NCBI RefSeq assembly: GCF_030646925.1
Contig: NZ_JAUSKL010000058.1
Location: 1-64,000 of the forward strand
Direction of reading: 5' to 3'
DNA length: 64,000 nucleotides
DNA from: Candidatus Binatus sp.
Lineage (GTDB): Bacteria > Desulfobacterota > Binatia > Binatales > Binataceae
Both the position numbers and the translations under genes were made by a program. The notes under the pieces are model-generated. The model was not told the origin of the DNA. It saw nothing but the letters and a program-made list of their open reading frames with translations, and searched no databases. Positions 44,176 through 51,900 of this stretch are shown here, piece by piece (position 1 is the first letter of the stretch; the number at the start of each line of letters is the position of its first letter).

Positions 44176-44404
44176 ATGCCCGGTTCCAGAAAACGCCAGA
44201 ACCCATCGGATGTCAATCAGATCGCCGCCATAAGACGCCGTGGCCGGTGAACTGCCAGTCGAGGATGCGGGCAAGAATCCTGCTGCGGTCGCGCTCGGGC
44301 GACTCGGTGGTCTAAAGGGCGGAAAAGCGCGTGCAAAGAAGCTAACTGCGCGTAAACGGTCGCAGATTGCTAAAAAAGCGGCTCTTGCACGGTGGGAAAG
44401 CTGA
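44176..44404 (+). pseudogene. Frameshifted small basic (GRLGGLKGGKAR-type) gene
   Basis: ATG 44176 opens MPGSRKRQNPSDVNQIAA and then hits a stop at 44248. The +1 frame from about 44234 continues DAVAGELPVEDAGKNPAAVA, LGRLGGLKGGKARAKKLTAR, IAKKAALARW to the stop at 44402. In the widespread small-protein family I recognise, both halves occur in one chain, so one base has been lost or gained near 44228-44236. The C-terminal half alone could start at GTG 44240. The family's function is unknown; the basic motif suggests nucleic-acid binding. Confidence 0.65.
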
Positions 44405-44411
44405 ATTTTGT

Positions 44412-44460
44412 TTGCATTAGTCCCTATATTTGGAGTATGTAATATCGTATGTGATATCAC
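44412..44460 (+). promoter_or_regulatory. Promoter/operator region of the hicAB operon
   Basis: ATGTAATATC (44437-44446) and ATGTGATATC (44449-44458) are direct repeats 12 bases apart; the second forms the palindrome GTGATATCAC (44451-44460). They overlap a weak promoter, TTGCAT (44412-44417) and TATGTA (44436-44441), 18 bases apart. HicB has a ribbon-helix-helix domain, so binding here for self-repression is plausible. Confidence 0.45.
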
Positions 44461-44523
44461 ATGACGCTCAAACAAGTCGGGCGGTTGAGGGTGCGGGTTG
44501 GCAATTTGCGGCGAACAAGAGAC

Positions 44524-44769
44524 GTGAAGAGCCGCGAGATGGTGCGTCTAGCCAAGGCAATCGGCAGAGAACCGGACAATCGTACAGGTAAAGAACCGAC
44601 TTACGTTCACTCAGAATTGGGGGATCGCAGACCACTATCGATTCCGAATCATCCAACGTTGGCTCCAGGCACGAAGAATAATATCTTGGACGATTTGGAA
44701 GGCGACCTAGACGCTTATGAAGAAATCCTTACTCAAAAAATCACGACAACAAACGGCAAGCTCCGCTAA
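44524..44769 (+). CDS. hicA: HicA-like toxin of a type II toxin-antitoxin system
   Basis: From GTG 44524 the 81-residue protein begins VKSREMVRLAKAIGR and carries the HicA dsRBD-like core, with the catalytic-type histidine in PLSIPNHPTLAPGT and the closing helix NILDDLEGDLDAYEEIL. HicA toxins cleave mRNA. An ATG at 44461 adds 21 basic residues that are not HicA-like. The gene overlaps hicB by 53 bases. It belongs to a longer HicA subtype with an insert (EPDNRTGKEPTYV) between the first helix and the His strand. Confidence 0.75.
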   Translation: MKSREMVRLAKAIGREPDNRTGKEPTYVHSELGDRRPLSIPNHPTLAPGTKNNILDDLEGDLDAYEEILTQKITTTNGKLR

Positions 44770-45364
44770 AAATCGCCCTCAGGACTATCTGAAGTTGCCT
44801 TACGCTAGAATCTTGATTCCTGAGGAAGACGGCGCATTTTCGGCTGAAGTATTAGAATTCCCCGGTTGTTATTCTCAAGGCGACAACGCTGGAGAGGCGT
44901 TTGAAAACTTAGAGAAGGCAGCGGTGGCGTGGATCGAGGCGTGTCAGGAACTCGGACAAGAAATACCGCCTCCGTCCTCGAATCAGGGTTACGGAGGAAA
45001 AATCGCGCTCAGACTTCCACGAGGATTGCATCGGTTAGCAGCACATAAAGCAGAGCGGGATAGGGTCAGTTTAAATCAATGTCTCGTTACTGCAATCGCG
45101 GCTTGGGTGGGCGCAGACAATTTGTATGAGAGAATTACACACAAAATAGAAATGAACTTTGTGCAAATGACGAATTATGTTCAGATCACCGCTTTGTGGG
45201 GCCCAGGGAATCCTTCATGGGGACCAGTTAGTCCGTGGATTATGAATGCCACGAACGTGACTCCAAATCTCGCGTCGATGTATCCGGCTGGTTTGGTTCC
45301 GGCAGTAGCTCCGGTCGAGATGCCGAAGAAGCAATGGGTCACCTCTGGAGAGATTAATGGCTGA
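44717..45364 (+). CDS. hicB: HicB-like antitoxin with C-terminal extension
   Basis: The 215-residue protein has the HicB fold (YARILIPEEDGAFSAEVLEF, PGCYSQGDNAGEAFENLEKA) at about 28-80 and a ribbon-helix-helix domain (KIALRLPRGLHRLAAHKAE, SLNQCLVTAIAAWVG) at about 94-137. The first should cover HicA and the second bind the operator. A further 75 residues rich in Pro, Asn and Trp follow and are not part of standard HicB. It overlaps the next gene by eight bases. Confidence 0.8.
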   Translation: MKKSLLKKSRQQTASSAKNRPQDYLKLPYARILIPEEDGAFSAEVLEFPGCYSQGDNAGEAFENLEKAAVAWIEACQELGQEIPPPSSNQGYGGKIALRLPRGLHRLAAHKAERDRVSLNQCLVTAIAAWVGADNLYERITHKIEMNFVQMTNYVQITALWGPGNPSWGPVSPWIMNATNVTPNLASMYPAGLVPAVAPVEMPKKQWVTSGEING

Positions 45365-45611
45365 GCCAACCCAATACGTTTTTGCACACAAAGAAATTGC
45401 CGGAATTCTGGTTCAAAAGCAGGGACTCCATGAAGGCTTTTGGACGTTGGGCTTTCAACTTGGGATGGGCAACACAATCGCACCTTCGCTAACGGGCGGC
45501 GATCCAGTCCCGGCAGTAGTTGTTTCAATTCTTGCGGTAGCCTTGCAAAAAGCCGAAAAGGATGGCCCGATGACCGTAGATGCAGCGAAAGTAAATCCGG
45601 TCAAGAAATAA
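45357..45611 (+). CDS. Conserved small protein, third gene of the hicAB operon
   Basis: The 84-residue protein opens MAEPTQYVFAHKEIAGILVQ, followed by KQGLHEGFWTLGFQLGMGN and ends with LTGGDPVPAVVVS, TVDAAKVNPVK. I have a general memory of similar uncharacterised proteins but know no function. It has no membrane segment or cysteine. Its start overlaps hicB by eight bases, so it is translated with the antitoxin. It could be a third component of the module, or simply cargo. Interaction with HicB's long tail is a reasonable guess. Confidence 0.65.
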   Translation: MAEPTQYVFAHKEIAGILVQKQGLHEGFWTLGFQLGMGNTIAPSLTGGDPVPAVVVSILAVALQKAEKDGPMTVDAAKVNPVKK

Positions 45612-45651
45612 CGCGACGCGAATAGCTTCCAAGCTCAAGCCCATGACTTAG

Positions 45652-46078
45652 GTGTTATGGGGCTTTGTGGCGTACTACGGCGCGATCAAGCGGGCGTTTG
45701 AAGGCGATGTTGATTACGCTCAGATTCACAAAGTATTCGCGTCCGAACTGAATACCGGACGCGGGCGCTATTCTCCGCCGGTCATGGTGGAATGCGGGCG
45801 CGAGGAACTAATCGGATCGCCCGATCCTGACCATATCTCGACCAGCTATGTTGAACGTCAGAATTTGACGATCAGGATGCAGAATCGGCGTTTCAAGCGC
45901 CTGACCAATGCGTTCAGCAAGAAGCTGACAAATCTCAAGGCGTCGGTCGCCTTGCATTTCGCCCATTACAATCTCTGCCGCATTCACAAGACGCTGCGCA
46001 TGACGCCCGCGATGGCGGCCAATATCAGCGATCAACATTTGGACGATCGAGGAATTGATCGAGCGGGCGTCAAATTAG
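45652..46078 (+). pseudogene. 3' half of an IS1-type transposase gene, frameshifted
   Basis: The frame matches the second half of the transposase: GDVDYAQIHKVFASEL, RYSPPVMVECGREELIG, then HISTSYVERQNLTIRMQNRR with the catalytic glutamate, KLTNLKASVALHFAHYN and CRIHKTLRMTPAMA. The half with the two catalytic aspartates is missing. Near 46038-46040 an extra T shifts the frame; one frame over, the normal ending WTIEELIERASN and a stop at 46076 appear. The stop lies inside the right terminal repeat. The element cannot move by itself. Confidence 0.8.
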
Positions 46079-46087
46079 GACACTACC
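46070..46087 (-). repeat. Right terminal inverted repeat
   Basis: TCAAATTAGGACACTACC, the inverted match to 44110-44127. The transposase's original stop codon falls inside it. Confidence 0.7.
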
Positions 46088-46203
46088 CGGCCGTCACCCC
46101 GCGGTTGCCGAGCGGCGGTCGAGTCGAGTAGTTTTCCACGGATGCCGGAGGCGATTGATTCGCCAAGCCCGGCGATTGCCCAACACGAGGAGAGATGACT
46201 TCG

Positions 46204-47595
46204 ATGATGACCGGTGAACAGTACAAGCGATCGCTCAACGACAACCGCGAGACCTACTTCGAGGGCGAGCGCGTTCGCGATCTCGTGACCCATCCGCTGC
46301 TCGGCGCCTGCGTCTCACGAATCGCCGCCGGTTACGATCATTTCTATTCGCCGCAGCCCGGCGCGGTCAGCGCGCTGATGGCGATACCGCATTCGGCGAA
46401 CGAGCTGCGCGACCGGATTCCGCTGCTGCACGAGGCCGATATCGTCGCCAACGTCACCTACCAGTCGATCATGACGCTCACCACCGCGTCGATCCGAATC
46501 GCCGACAAGCTGCCGCAATATGCCGAGCGGATTCGCAATTACGTGCAGGGCGCGCAGCGCCGCGACATCCGGATCGTCGAGTGCATCACGGACGCCAAGG
46601 GCGATCGCAGCCGCCCGCCGGGCAAGCAGGACGACCCCGACGCCTACACCCACGTGGTCGATCGCCGCCCCGACGGCGTGATCATTCGCGGCGCCAAGCT
46701 GCACATCACCGGCGCCTCGATGTGCCACGAGCTGATGGTGATTCCGACCAAGGCGATGAAGCCCGGCGAAGAGAGCTACGCGATCGCCTGCGCCGTGCCG
46801 GTCAACTCTCCCGGCATCAAGATAATCGACACGACCTTCGCCCCACGCCATCACGACAGCCGCACCTTCCCGGTCTCGGCCAATATCCACATGCCCGAGG
46901 GGTTCGTGATCTTCGACAACGTGTTTGTGCCGAACGAGCGAATCTTCCTCGACGGCGAGGTCCAGCAGGCAGCTATCTTCGCGCATTCGCTGGGACTGTG
47001 GGAGCGGCTCGGCGGACTCTCGGCGATGGCGGAAGAAGGCGATCAGTTGGTCGGATTCGCGCAGTTGATCGCCGAAGCCAACGGGCTGGCCAATGAAAGC
47101 CACGTCAAGGAGAAGATCTCCGAGATGATCATCCATGCCACGCTGGTGCGCGCGGCGCTCGAGGCCGCGATCGGGAATTGCCACGTGACGCCCGAAGGCG
47201 CGTTCCCCGACGAGCTATACACCAACGCCGGCAAGTATCACGGCGCCGCGAACTACAACCTGATGGTGCGCCATCTGCACGATATCGCGGGCGGATCGGT
47301 GCTGACCGCGCCGTCAGTCGCCGATCTCGAAAACGAAGTCACCGGACCGCTGGTGCGCAAATACATGGGGACGATGAACGGCGTGGACGGCGAGTATCGC
47401 GCGCGCTTGTTCCACGCGATTCGCGATTTGACCGCCGATTCCTACGGCGGCTGGAAGGCGGTCACCAACGTGCAGGCCGGCGGCGGGCTCTACGCCCAAA
47501 GGATCGTGACGCGCCGCTACTACGATCTCAAAGGCGCCAAGCAGAAGGCGCTCCGCCTGGCCGGAGTCGACGACAAGCCGCAGTCAAACTCCTAG
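46204..47595 (+). CDS. HpaB-superfamily protein (4-hydroxyphenylacetate 3-monooxygenase-like)
   Basis: The 463-residue protein has the two-part HpaB fold: MMTGEQYKRSLNDNRETYFEGERV at its start in two blocks, ASMCHELMVIPTKAM, the PVNSPGIKII strand, IFDNVFVPNERIFLDGE, and HLHDIAGGSVLTAPS. The superfamily holds FADH2-dependent phenol hydroxylases and the 4Fe-4S/FAD enzyme 4-hydroxybutyryl-CoA dehydratase. The cluster cysteines of the latter are not present, so a flavin-only role is likelier. ATG 46204 follows AGGAG by 11 bases; ATG 46195 is possible. The next gene is an acyl-CoA dehydrogenase on the same strand. Confidence 0.85.
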   Translation: MMTGEQYKRSLNDNRETYFEGERVRDLVTHPLLGACVSRIAAGYDHFYSPQPGAVSALMAIPHSANELRDRIPLLHEADIVANVTYQSIMTLTTASIRIADKLPQYAERIRNYVQGAQRRDIRIVECITDAKGDRSRPPGKQDDPDAYTHVVDRRPDGVIIRGAKLHITGASMCHELMVIPTKAMKPGEESYAIACAVPVNSPGIKIIDTTFAPRHHDSRTFPVSANIHMPEGFVIFDNVFVPNERIFLDGEVQQAAIFAHSLGLWERLGGLSAMAEEGDQLVGFAQLIAEANGLANESHVKEKISEMIIHATLVRAALEAAIGNCHVTPEGAFPDELYTNAGKYHGAANYNLMVRHLHDIAGGSVLTAPSVADLENEVTGPLVRKYMGTMNGVDGEYRARLFHAIRDLTADSYGGWKAVTNVQAGGGLYAQRIVTRRYYDLKGAKQKALRLAGVDDKPQSNS

Positions 47596-47663: not shown

Positions 47664-48821
47664 ATGCGACGAGATATCTTCACCGCAGAGCACGAAATGT
47701 TTCGCGACCAGGTGCGCCGCTTCGTCGAAACCGAAATCGAGCCGAAGGTCGCGCAGTGGAATCGCAACGGCATGAGCGATCGCGAGAGCTGGCGCAAGAT
47801 GGGCGCGGCCGGCTTCCTCGGCGCCAACGCGCCCGCTGAATACGGCGGCGGCGGCGTGGATTTCATCTACGACGCGATCGTGATGGAAGAAATGTCGCGG
47901 GTGCGCGCCCACGGCCTGATGATGTCGCTGCATTCGGACATCTGCATGCCGTACATCACGAGCTTCGGCAACGAGGCACAGAAGCGGCGCTATCTGCCCG
48001 GCACGATCAGCGGCGAAATCATCCTCGCGATCGCGATGACCGAGCCGGGCACCGGATCAGATCTCGCCGCAGTGCAGACGACCGCGCGCCGCGACGGCGA
48101 CAACTACGTCCTCAACGGTTCGAAAACGTTTATCTCCAATGGCCAGATCGCCGACCTTGTAATCGTCGTCTGCAAGACCGACCCCAAGGCAAATCCGCCG
48201 CACAAGGGCGTCAGCCTGATGCTGGTGGACGCGACCAGTCCCGGCTTCGTCCGCGGGCGCAAACTCGACAAACTCGGGCTCCGCGGCCAGGACACCAGCG
48301 AACTGTTCTTCGAGGATTGCCGCGTGCCGGTCGCCAACCTGCTCGGCCAGGAAGGGCAGGGCTTCAAGATGCTGATGCAGAATCTGCAGCAGGAGCGGCT
48401 CTGCGTTGGCGTCGCATCGATAGCCAGTTGCCGCCGCACGGTCGAGGATACGGTCGCATACTGCAAGCAGCGGCGCGCCTTCGGACAGCCGATCGCCGAG
48501 TTTCAGAACACCCAGTTCAAGCTCGCCGAGATGATGACTGAAGTCGAAGTCGGCCAGGCCTTTGTCGATCGTTTGCTGGTCGCGCATGTTCGCCACGACG
48601 AAATCGTCGCCGAGGTCAGCATGGCGAAATGGTGGACCACCGACCTGCAGAAAAAGATTTCGAGCCAATGCCTGCAACTGCACGGCGGCTACGGCTTCAT
48701 GATGGAGTACCCGGTCGCGACCGACTACGCCGACGCGGCGGTGCAATCGATCTACGCCGGCACTAACGAAATCATGAAGGTGATCATCGCGCGCAGCATG
48801 GGACTGGATTCAAGAAAGTAG
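47664..48821 (+). CDS. Acyl-CoA dehydrogenase
   Basis: The 385-residue enzyme matches short-/medium-chain ACADs: AAGFLGANAPAEYGG, MTEPGTGSDLAAVQTTA, GSKTFISNGQIADL, KLGLRGQDTSELFFEDCRVP, the LQLHGGYGFM stretch and the catalytic Glu369 in YAGTNEIMK. It lies 68 bases after the HpaB-like gene and starts at ATG 47664, with GAGG upstream. The last 153 bases are duplicated at 50662-50814. Its final codons (TCA AGA AAG) are unlike the GC-rich usage of the gene, while the second copy ends in TCG CGC AAG, so the 3' end here may be imported. Confidence 0.92.
   Translation: MRRDIFTAEHEMFRDQVRRFVETEIEPKVAQWNRNGMSDRESWRKMGAAGFLGANAPAEYGGGGVDFIYDAIVMEEMSRVRAHGLMMSLHSDICMPYITSFGNEAQKRRYLPGTISGEIILAIAMTEPGTGSDLAAVQTTARRDGDNYVLNGSKTFISNGQIADLVIVVCKTDPKANPPHKGVSLMLVDATSPGFVRGRKLDKLGLRGQDTSELFFEDCRVPVANLLGQEGQGFKMLMQNLQQERLCVGVASIASCRRTVEDTVAYCKQRRAFGQPIAEFQNTQFKLAEMMTEVEVGQAFVDRLLVAHVRHDEIVAEVSMAKWWTTDLQKKISSQCLQLHGGYGFMMEYPVATDYADAAVQSIYAGTNEIMKVIIARSMGLDSRK
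48669..48821. repeat. 153-bp direct repeat, left copy (3' end of ACAD gene)
   Basis: Identical to 50662-50814 for the first 126 bases, then five differences in the last 27. It bounds the left side of a roughly 1.84-kb accessory segment. Confidence 0.9.
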
Positions 48822-48911
48822 CGACGAACTGCGGCAGCGGCGCGGAACGACAGTAGTTCGCACAACCGCGCACCCGTCCCCATATCTGCCGACCAGAATC
48901 GAGAGCGGTTG

Positions 48912-49413
48912 TCAGCGGCGGAAGGTTCCTTGGCCATGAAAGTAATGTTCAAAGTCGTTATCAGCAACGCCGCCTTGTCTGCTTGAGTCGTGGCGTATAG
49001 TAATTTCCGGTGTTTCGAACGGATCCAGATGCGGCCTGACTCCGACGACCAACCCCGTGTGATGCTCAGCCGGATTGACATAAAATATCGCCTTGTTGAA
49101 CGTAAGGTAACTCCACCGGGGTCAGTCCTTGTATCAGTACCTTAACGCGATAGGTATATCCCAGTAAGCACCGTTCGTCGGCTGCGCCTTTTTTTGTGCG
49201 TAGTTCATGAGCCAGCCAATGAGCGCAGCCAGTGCCCATAATTGGCATCCACTCGTCATCACCGTGGTACTGAATGAAGCAGTCCTTAGGTTCGATATCA
49301 CGTGTCACCTGAGTTCTGGCCAAAGTTATTCCAGTTTGGCACCGAGCGCAGTACTCAACTCGGTTGTATTCCATTACTGATTCTCGGCCGGGATGAAGCT
49401 TACATCTTGGCAT
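48912..49413 (-). pseudogene. NlpC/P60-like cysteine hydrolase gene with a frameshift
   Basis: ATG 49413 opens MPRCKLHPGRESVMEYNRVE, has two CxxC-like cysteines and the likely nucleophile in GTGCAHWLAHEL, then stops at 49066 after VQQGDILCQSG. One frame over, the reading continues NPAEHHTGLVVGVRPHLDPF, ITIRHDSSRQGGVADNDF, HYFHGQGTFRR to a stop at 48912, restoring the catalytic His region after the GDI turn. An extra T in the TTTT run near 49079 explains it. Either the gene is broken, the site slips during expression, or the read is wrong. The restored protein would be about 167 residues. Confidence 0.7.
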
Positions 49414-49440
49414 AAACGATCCTCCTCGGCGGGCGTGAAT

Positions 49441-50238
49441 TCATTGTGGGCAGTTTAGTGGTGGCGGTCCGGGCGGGCCCTCCGTTCCAGGCGCGCGATT
49501 TTCGTAATCCAGCCATACACGGACTATCTTCTGAGCATCTGGCTGCTTCACATCGCGGAAAAATTCGTCGCCTTCGAACCGCACCGGCGCGGCGGGAACA
49601 ATATAGCGGTACAGCACCTCGGTGATTGGCCATGTGTCGGGGTGCATCCGGTAGTCGGGATATCGTTTCTTTCGGAGCCTATCGACCGGCACATTCAGCA
49701 TGTCGGTGAATGCTTGCTTAATTACTTGGCCCTGATCGTCGGTCTCCGACTGTTGTTCCGCGCCATCGAGATAATCCGCCACGACGTTGCGCGGGTGCGT
49801 CGAACCGGCGACCCTCGCGCCGCCGTGATCTATCCAATCGAGCCACATACGGATTGCCTTTTGCGCGTCCGGCTTCTTCACGTCGCGGAAGAAACTTTCG
49901 CCTTCGAACTCAAACTCTGGCGGGTTGGGAACGAAATAATGAGACAGCACCAGCGTGACCGGCCATCTGCGGGGGTGCATCTCGTAATCGGGGTACTGTT
50001 TCTCGCGTAGTGTCTCGACCGGCTCATTGAGCATGTCGGTCAGGGCTTGCTTGACTACTTGTCGATGATCGTCGCCTTGGAAATGTTCTCTGGCACCGTT
50101 CAGGTAGTCCGCAACGACATTGCGTTGATCGCTCGAGTCGGCGGCCATCGGTCCGTAGCGGTCCGTCAGACAAAGCGATGAGGATACCAGAAGTACGGCG
50201 AGCGAAATGAAAACGAGACGACACTTCAGTCTCTCCAT
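49441..50238 (-). CDS. Exported protein with two tandem copies of an unknown domain
   Basis: From ATG 50238 the 265-residue protein has an N-terminal signal-like helix (LVFISLAVLLVSSSLC) and two similar units at about 39-135 and 150-245. Both share RNVVADYL, QV[VI]KQA, TDMLN, PV, YPDY, MHP, WP[VI]T, FFRDVK and PDAQK. Each ends in an R-WLD helix. I do not know the family. It should be periplasmic or surface-exposed. A start at 50280 is possible but adds 14 unusual residues. It lies 27 bases upstream of the cysteine hydrolase gene on the same strand. Confidence 0.7.
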   Translation of the reverse strand: MERLKCRLVFISLAVLLVSSSLCLTDRYGPMAADSSDQRNVVADYLNGAREHFQGDDHRQVVKQALTDMLNEPVETLREKQYPDYEMHPRRWPVTLVLSHYFVPNPPEFEFEGESFFRDVKKPDAQKAIRMWLDWIDHGGARVAGSTHPRNVVADYLDGAEQQSETDDQGQVIKQAFTDMLNVPVDRLRKKRYPDYRMHPDTWPITEVLYRYIVPAAPVRFEGDEFFRDVKQPDAQKIVRVWLDYENRAPGTEGPPGPPPLNCPQ

Positions 50239-50366
50239 TTGCGGACGCGGCGGGCCCGCACTGGAGAGTGCTAACTGCATGTCAGCATGATATCAAACAC
50301 CGCGGCCATAAAATAGCAGGCTCCAGCGGCTAATCTGAAATTCGCGCAACTAGCTCATTGTCGTTG

Positions 50367-50661
50367 TCATTCTCGGGCCGACGACGAGGCAGTCGTCGAA
50401 GCGGCACCCTGCTTTCCGCATAGCGTGTCGTTCACGTCGCACTGGGGCGTGATACCTACAGTGCGCTGGCGTGCATTCAGGTCGAAGATAGCTGTGTTGG
50501 TCTTGTCATTCGCCGCGCAGCCGCATAGCTGACTCGCACAGCAACTGCATCCGACCGCCGCCTCCAGATTGGCTATCGCCAACAGGCCCTTAGCCGGGCA
50601 GTTGGATAAGCCAGAGCAAGCTACCGAAGTAAGGTCTCGGTCATTGCATTGGCCGGTGCAT
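50367..50661 (-). pseudogene. Truncated cysteine-rich protein gene
   Basis: A minus-strand frame with no start runs from the repeat junction at 50661 to a stop at 50367. It encodes 97 residues with 13 cysteines: CTGQCNDRD, VACSGLSNCPAKGLLAIANL, GCSCCASQLCGCAANDK, then TVGITPQCDVNDTLCGKQ. The composition is protein-like all the way to the junction, where the duplicated ACAD sequence begins, so the 5' part was lost there. I cannot name the family. It precedes the exported repeat protein on the same strand by 86 bases from its stop to the 50280 frame. Confidence 0.5.
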
Positions 50662-50814
50662 TGCCTGCAACTGCACGGCGGCTACGGCTTCATGATGGAG
50701 TACCCGGTCGCGACCGACTACGCCGACGCGGCGGTGCAATCGATCTACGCCGGCACTAACGAAATCATGAAGGTGATCATCGCGCGCAGAATGGGACTCG
50801 ATTCGCGCAAGTAG
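50662..50814. repeat. 153-bp direct repeat, right copy (3' end of ACAD gene)
   Basis: Second copy of the ACAD 3' end, including the stop codon. Its last nine codons follow the genome's normal codon use, suggesting it is the original chromosomal end of the gene. Confidence 0.9.
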
Positions 50815-51774: not shown

Positions 51775-51900
51775 GATCCGGCACCCTCACCTATCTCTTT
51801 ATCCTGGAGCGATTCGGCCCTTCGGCCCGAAGTCGGCTTAGCGTGCGTGCGGCGACTCGGCCTCCTCTCCCGTAAAATAACGGGCGAGGTAAAGAGTGGC
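51775..51900. repeat. Two-copy intergenic repeat (copy B)
   Basis: Outer blocks 51775-51796 and 51852-51900 match 2731-2752 and 2765-2813. The 55-base centre, absent at copy A, contains GATTCGGCCCTTCGGCCCG and matches 12705-12737 in inverted orientation. It lies in the divergent epimerase-metH promoter region. Confidence 0.7.

Follow-up and report, generated by a model that had tools for sequence, protein, structure and literature searches.

A small gene on the minus strand, between 48912 and 49413 of the window (the whole 64-kb stretch of DNA analysed here), with the look of a gene for a cysteine-dependent hydrolase of the cell wall, is broken into two reading frames, and we put at about even the chance that it is a protein-coding gene recently inactivated by a one-base indel. 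In the proposed course of events, the ancestral protein would have been ~166 residues long and encoded in a single frame, with Cys...GD...His arranged as in papain-like hydrolases of the NlpC/P60 or CHAP type. The gene, which is stranded in a rearranged patch of the genome of an uncultured bacterium, would then have gained or lost a single base within 49121-49066, and translation would now end at the TGA at 49068-49066. Because this stop lies upstream of the putative catalytic His, the 115-residue fragment that is left should be inactive. Taken as a whole, the locus most probably holds nothing more unusual than a dead gene or an error of the draft.

Two reading frames and their junction

Frame A (49066..49413, minus strand) opens with the ATG at 49413 and runs for 115 codons to the TGA at 49068-49066. 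It encodes the N-terminal part of the protein, with an MPRCK start, a putative catalytic Cys in GTGCAHW and a GDI turn (..GTGCAHWLAHEL..QQGDILCQSG, then the stop), and a strong Shine-Dalgarno sequence, GAGGAGGA at 49427-49420, lies 6 nt 5' of its ATG. Frame B, the +1 frame (48912..49121, minus strand), encodes the C-terminal part with HHTGLVV (..VNPAEHHTGLVV..NDFEHYFHGQGTFRR) and stops at 48914-48912; its end matches a fragment found in a genome of another class, G509 (see below). Since the last upstream stop in frame B starts at 49124, the frame transition falls within the 56 nt of 49121-49066 on the minus strand, where the only runs of four or more are CCCC (49121-49118) and TTTT (49085-49082). 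Frame B contains no ATG, GTG or TTG start upstream of HHTG, and is thus not an independent ORF under these common starts. Its openness counts for little, as the third frame is likewise free of stops here: an ATG at 49081 begins a 109-codon ORF (48752-49081). A codon-usage scan trained on 25 genes of the window clearly favoured no frame across the junction stretch.

The original prediction named no strand; its first frame ending soon after GDI and its next frame holding HHTGLVV are both read on the minus strand, and the frame break that it described is sound. Its statement that a TTTT run marks the site was an over-reading, as runs of exactly four occur 91 times for T and 81 times for A within the 64-kb window. 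Several observations speak for inactivation: the match of the frame B end in G509, the state of the surrounding patch and the lack of homologs in the genus and class, all taken up below, and two features of the frames themselves. First, frame A begins at a start codon served by a strong Shine-Dalgarno sequence and stays open, 27 nt behind a 279-residue gene. Second, the GD of frame A and the HHTG of frame B succeed one another as they do in the family. Against inactivation, both frames look undamaged apart from the shift, and a base-calling error would fit this as well.

The rearranged patch around the split gene

The 279-residue gene and the split gene sit in a rearrangement scar, which has the following marks. 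First, an acyl-CoA dehydrogenase gene has its final 156 bp (48666..48821, plus strand) repeated 1993 bp downstream, in a headless duplicate (50659..50814, plus strand) that is 96% identical. The right copy ends as in the gene of a congener, G003 (GATTCGCGCAAG); in the left copy, different codons specify these residues. Second, a fragment of a 447-residue Cys-rich gene lies on the minus strand at 50382..50658, abutting the duplicated dehydrogenase tail, with 88% identity over 277 nt to part of the intact copy elsewhere in this genome (G000:C21, locus L102). In G003 the 447-residue gene adjoins the dehydrogenase, before a thiolase, and in another congener, G001, a homolog of the 279-residue gene adjoins the same kind of thiolase. 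Third, the G+C content is 53-57% in the patch versus 62-64% beside it. The neighbouring metH and epimerase genes are kept together in five congeners (L039-L043) and in two further genomes (L045, L046); in the eight epimerase stretches inspected, this dehydrogenase never adjoins. An integrated element with att-like repeats, spanning 48822-50658, was considered and dropped once the fragment of the 447-residue gene had been recognized; a rearrangement scar would explain this interval better. No Rfam family reached its gathering score between 44000 and 52000, and the 64-kb window contains no tRNA.

A dispersed short intergenic repeat (CTCTCCCGTTACTTTACGGGAGAGGAGGCC...GGTAGGTGAGGGTGC) is present at 51849-51895 of the window and in several copies near the locus of the intact 447-residue gene (L102: 4995-5032, 6768-6862 and 7189-7283). 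At 44250-46250 the G+C content is low; this stretch carries a gene for a HicB-like antitoxin (44717-45364) and an ORF with weak likeness to transposases (45652-46131), and it adjoins an HpaB-family gene whose neighbours vary among relatives.

This setting bears on the question whether the break exists in the cell at all. That the gene is intact there, and that the draft genome has a one-base slip, is the foremost rival explanation, though a doubtful one: the draft consists of 126 contigs and no second lesion is seen across the 166 codons, yet runs of four T are common in the window and are, to our knowledge, not a usual error site, and the surrounding gene fragments suggest real decay. A survey of prokaryotic frame transitions expects, in the passages drawn on here, that BLASTp-validated singletons are sequencing errors and not indel mutations (PMC3711429), which would favour a slip, but the split gene has no validation of the BLASTp type. 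The singletons that these passages class as indel, error or overlap resemble the split gene in that it occurs in one genome with no conserved site, and differ in that its family is too rare for BLASTp validation. The original prediction had offered a dead gene and a sequencing error side by side, and both remain. The local context favours a dead gene, by virtue of the one-sided gene fragments, the duplicated tail and the lack of relatives of the gene in the genus, and we infer that the indel is probably real and not a base-calling or assembly slip.

Hydrolase-like motifs and the search for relatives

Read across frames A and B, the split gene has the motif order Cys (GTGCAHW), GD (QQGDI) and His (HHTGLVV), in which QQGDI (49098-49084, frame A) precedes the putative catalytic His of HHTG in frame B. 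The GD motif is common to NlpC/P60 and CHAP enzymes according to part of the text of PMC10318531, and the split gene is like these enzymes in this order and in its small, single-domain size. It differs from them in giving no profile match, in having the His in the other frame, in the unusual abundance of Cys near its N-terminus (MPRCK..CARC) and in HDSSRQGGVADNDF at its C-terminus. The read-through protein that joins frames A and B (P0003) gave a single row against Pfam, DUF5867, with an E of 0.17, below the cut-off, and zero matches against PADLOC, PHROGs and NCBIfam or against the PDB sequences. For profile A4, the best match among the PDB sequences was a penicillin acylase (E 0.063), which we took as chance. 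The AlphaFold model of P0003, made from the single sequence, was too poor for a fold search (pLDDT 28.7). Because the tests of profile membership failed, the papain-like hydrolase is a reading of motifs and not of membership; the 'cysteine hydrolase' of the original prediction is consistent with the Cys, GD and His motifs and gained no profile or library match. The isochorismatase-type cysteine hydrolases (PF00857), of which this genome has three copies elsewhere, were rejected as a candidate, none being at the locus.

Searches for relatives mostly returned the gene itself. The frame A protein (P0001) was found in this genome only among 145 near genomes, and so was P0003 among the 148 genomes of the class. 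Across the phylum, 19 of 395 genomes gave a match to P0001 at E<=0.1; with the gene itself set aside, the best E values were 0.0096, for a match on contig C109 of its own genome, and 0.0113. The C109 match was rejected on reading, as it has no credible frame. In the genome_contigs and viral_contigs collections, 30 and 13 stretches, respectively, fitted a P0001 pattern and none was confirmed, and tblastn with P0001 against plasmids and phages found nothing, only weak matches (E>=0.4) appearing at E up to 10. Neither a full-length homolog nor one that spans the junction came out of these searches, and there is accordingly no alignment to prove that both frames were ever one protein.

The frame B piece matched 7 of the 395 genomes of the phylum at E<=0.05, its own included. 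Two of the six non-self matches, those in G509 and G170, were inspected, and the G170 match was set aside after its ORFs had been listed. The match in G509 has an E of 0.00182 for one genome, with 395 searched. The G509 fragment (L066 125-220) reads TKKITIKHCSSGQYGVVENDFAYFKCSGAFYR and then stops as frame B does; 18 of 32 residues (56%) are identical. Counting the stop, 33 codons can be paired; they differ 11 times at the first position, 9 times at the second and 18 times at the third, and 11 of the identical residues are encoded synonymously, a pattern as would be expected for protein-level constraint. A shuffle test anchored at the stop (score 74) puts the number of matches expected by chance over the full search at ~0.68, so that the G509 match, borderline once multiple testing is allowed for, is by itself no proof. 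An ATG 64 nt from the G509 fragment, on the opposite strand, opens MPKCKNYDSERT (MPKCK), a frame that runs off the contig. MP[KR]CK follows 11 of the 13,636 ATGs in the loci examined, and these 11 rows come from two places only, the split gene (8 rows) and G509 (3 rows), although this coincidence was spotted post hoc. The stretch G509:C6 1-220 (L066) shows head-to-head remnants resembling the same small family, with the MPKCK start on one strand and the C-terminal fragment on the other. Being a remnant without the HHTG part, the G509 piece cannot show the junction of an intact gene. The 'conserved-looking end' of the original prediction is shared by one remote fragment and by nothing further. 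In the class of G509, profile A2 found 1 of 46 genomes, G509 itself; in viral_contigs it gave 55 stretches, none confirmed, and a scan of the same collection for a GCAHW-type DNA motif gave zero. The pattern H-SS-Q-GV-NDF matched once in viral_contigs and twice in genome_contigs, and all three matches were unrelated on reading.

These comparisons also bear on whether frame A is a complete short protein with its natural end at 49068-49066, the likeness in frame B being due to chance, which we consider rather unlikely. Frame A has no homolog to show where it naturally ends, about 0.7 chance matches like that in G509 are expected in the genomes searched, and the third frame is open there as well. 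On the other side, HHTGLVV comes close behind GDI, as in a papain-like enzyme, the stop position is common to frame B and the G509 fragment, and the codon differences between the two are mostly at the third position. That frame A is translationally coupled to another ORF further downstream, in the third frame, is very improbable: the ATG at 49081 and its 109-codon ORF are near the frame A stop, but the ORF has no HHTG and runs antisense into the 3' end of the dehydrogenase gene, and frame B for its part lacks any of the common start codons upstream of HHTG.

Least probable of all is a programmed +1 ribosomal frameshift or a transcriptional slippage that yields the full protein. At the T run TTA comes after ATT, and the stop of frame A is TGA, but no P-site codon in the 56-nt stretch retains its first two bases when shifted by +1, and the CTT-TGA context of the prfB frameshift site is absent at the junction. 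The likeness to the prfB-type frameshift, as described in part of the text of PMC12421855, is that the junction is +1 with a TGA stop in the zero frame; the difference is that it has no slippery codon, no stimulator that we could see and no conserved site among the genomes searched. The T run is only four long, whereas many genomes show evident selection against slippage at runs of 9 nt (passages of PMC1088944) and the slippage cases known to the passages of PMC3711429 used here have Tn, n>8. The latter survey, in the same passages, required at least five frame-shifted homologs with a conserved site, and our searches of the genus, class and phylum found no homologous frame-shifted copies. The slippage switch put forward in the original prediction finds no support, given the short T4 run, the lack of a +1 re-pairing codon and the lack of such copies, and an inactivated gene remains our preferred explanation.

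The 279-residue neighbour and a possible family

The frameshift is itself ordinary and of slight consequence for annotation, where automatic gene prediction would yield a truncated hypothetical protein at this locus. The part with some novelty is the rare family alone, which gave no match over the cut-off in the libraries searched; together with its double-repeat partner, likewise without such a match, it may deserve attention when intact copies turn up. The partner gene (49441..50280, minus strand), located 27 nt upstream of frame A, encodes 279 residues with two repeats of ~107 residues (60% identical) and an N-terminus judged hydrophobic by eye. Pfam gave no row over its cut-off for this protein, and the plasmids gave zero matches. 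One repeat was modelled as all-helical (pLDDT 69.8, pTM 0.68), and a fold search of this model against the PDB returned nothing at E<=0.001 or at Z>=5. Homologs were found in 2 of 58 near genomes and in 2 of the phylum's 395 genomes; each time the two were this genome and the congener G001.

It is conceivable, albeit improbable, that the split gene represents a small undescribed papain-like family, with an MP[KR]CK Cys-rich start and an ITI-H-SS-Q-GV--NDF end, which travels with a tandem-repeat, helical and probably exported immunity or regulator partner. According to the passages of PMC3695027 cited here, Tae effectors are NlpC/P60 amidases whose genes share bicistronic operons with those of immunity proteins; the comparison of effector and immunity genes also draws on part of the text of PMC3482391. 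Like Tae/Tai pairs, the locus presents as a bicistron in which the gene for a putative amidase accompanies one for a helical protein whose N-terminus is signal-like, and the layout, as far as it can be read from the DNA, is that of two genes on the same strand with a 27-nt gap. The locus differs from them in that the searches gave the pair no sequence or fold match to known pairs, the partner gene comes first, and no delivery genes were recognised near the locus. In G001, the homolog of the 279-residue gene (L044 7227-8039) adjoins the thiolase gene and no hydrolase gene was seen beside it, so that the partner may survive there without the hydrolase, as orphan immunity genes do.
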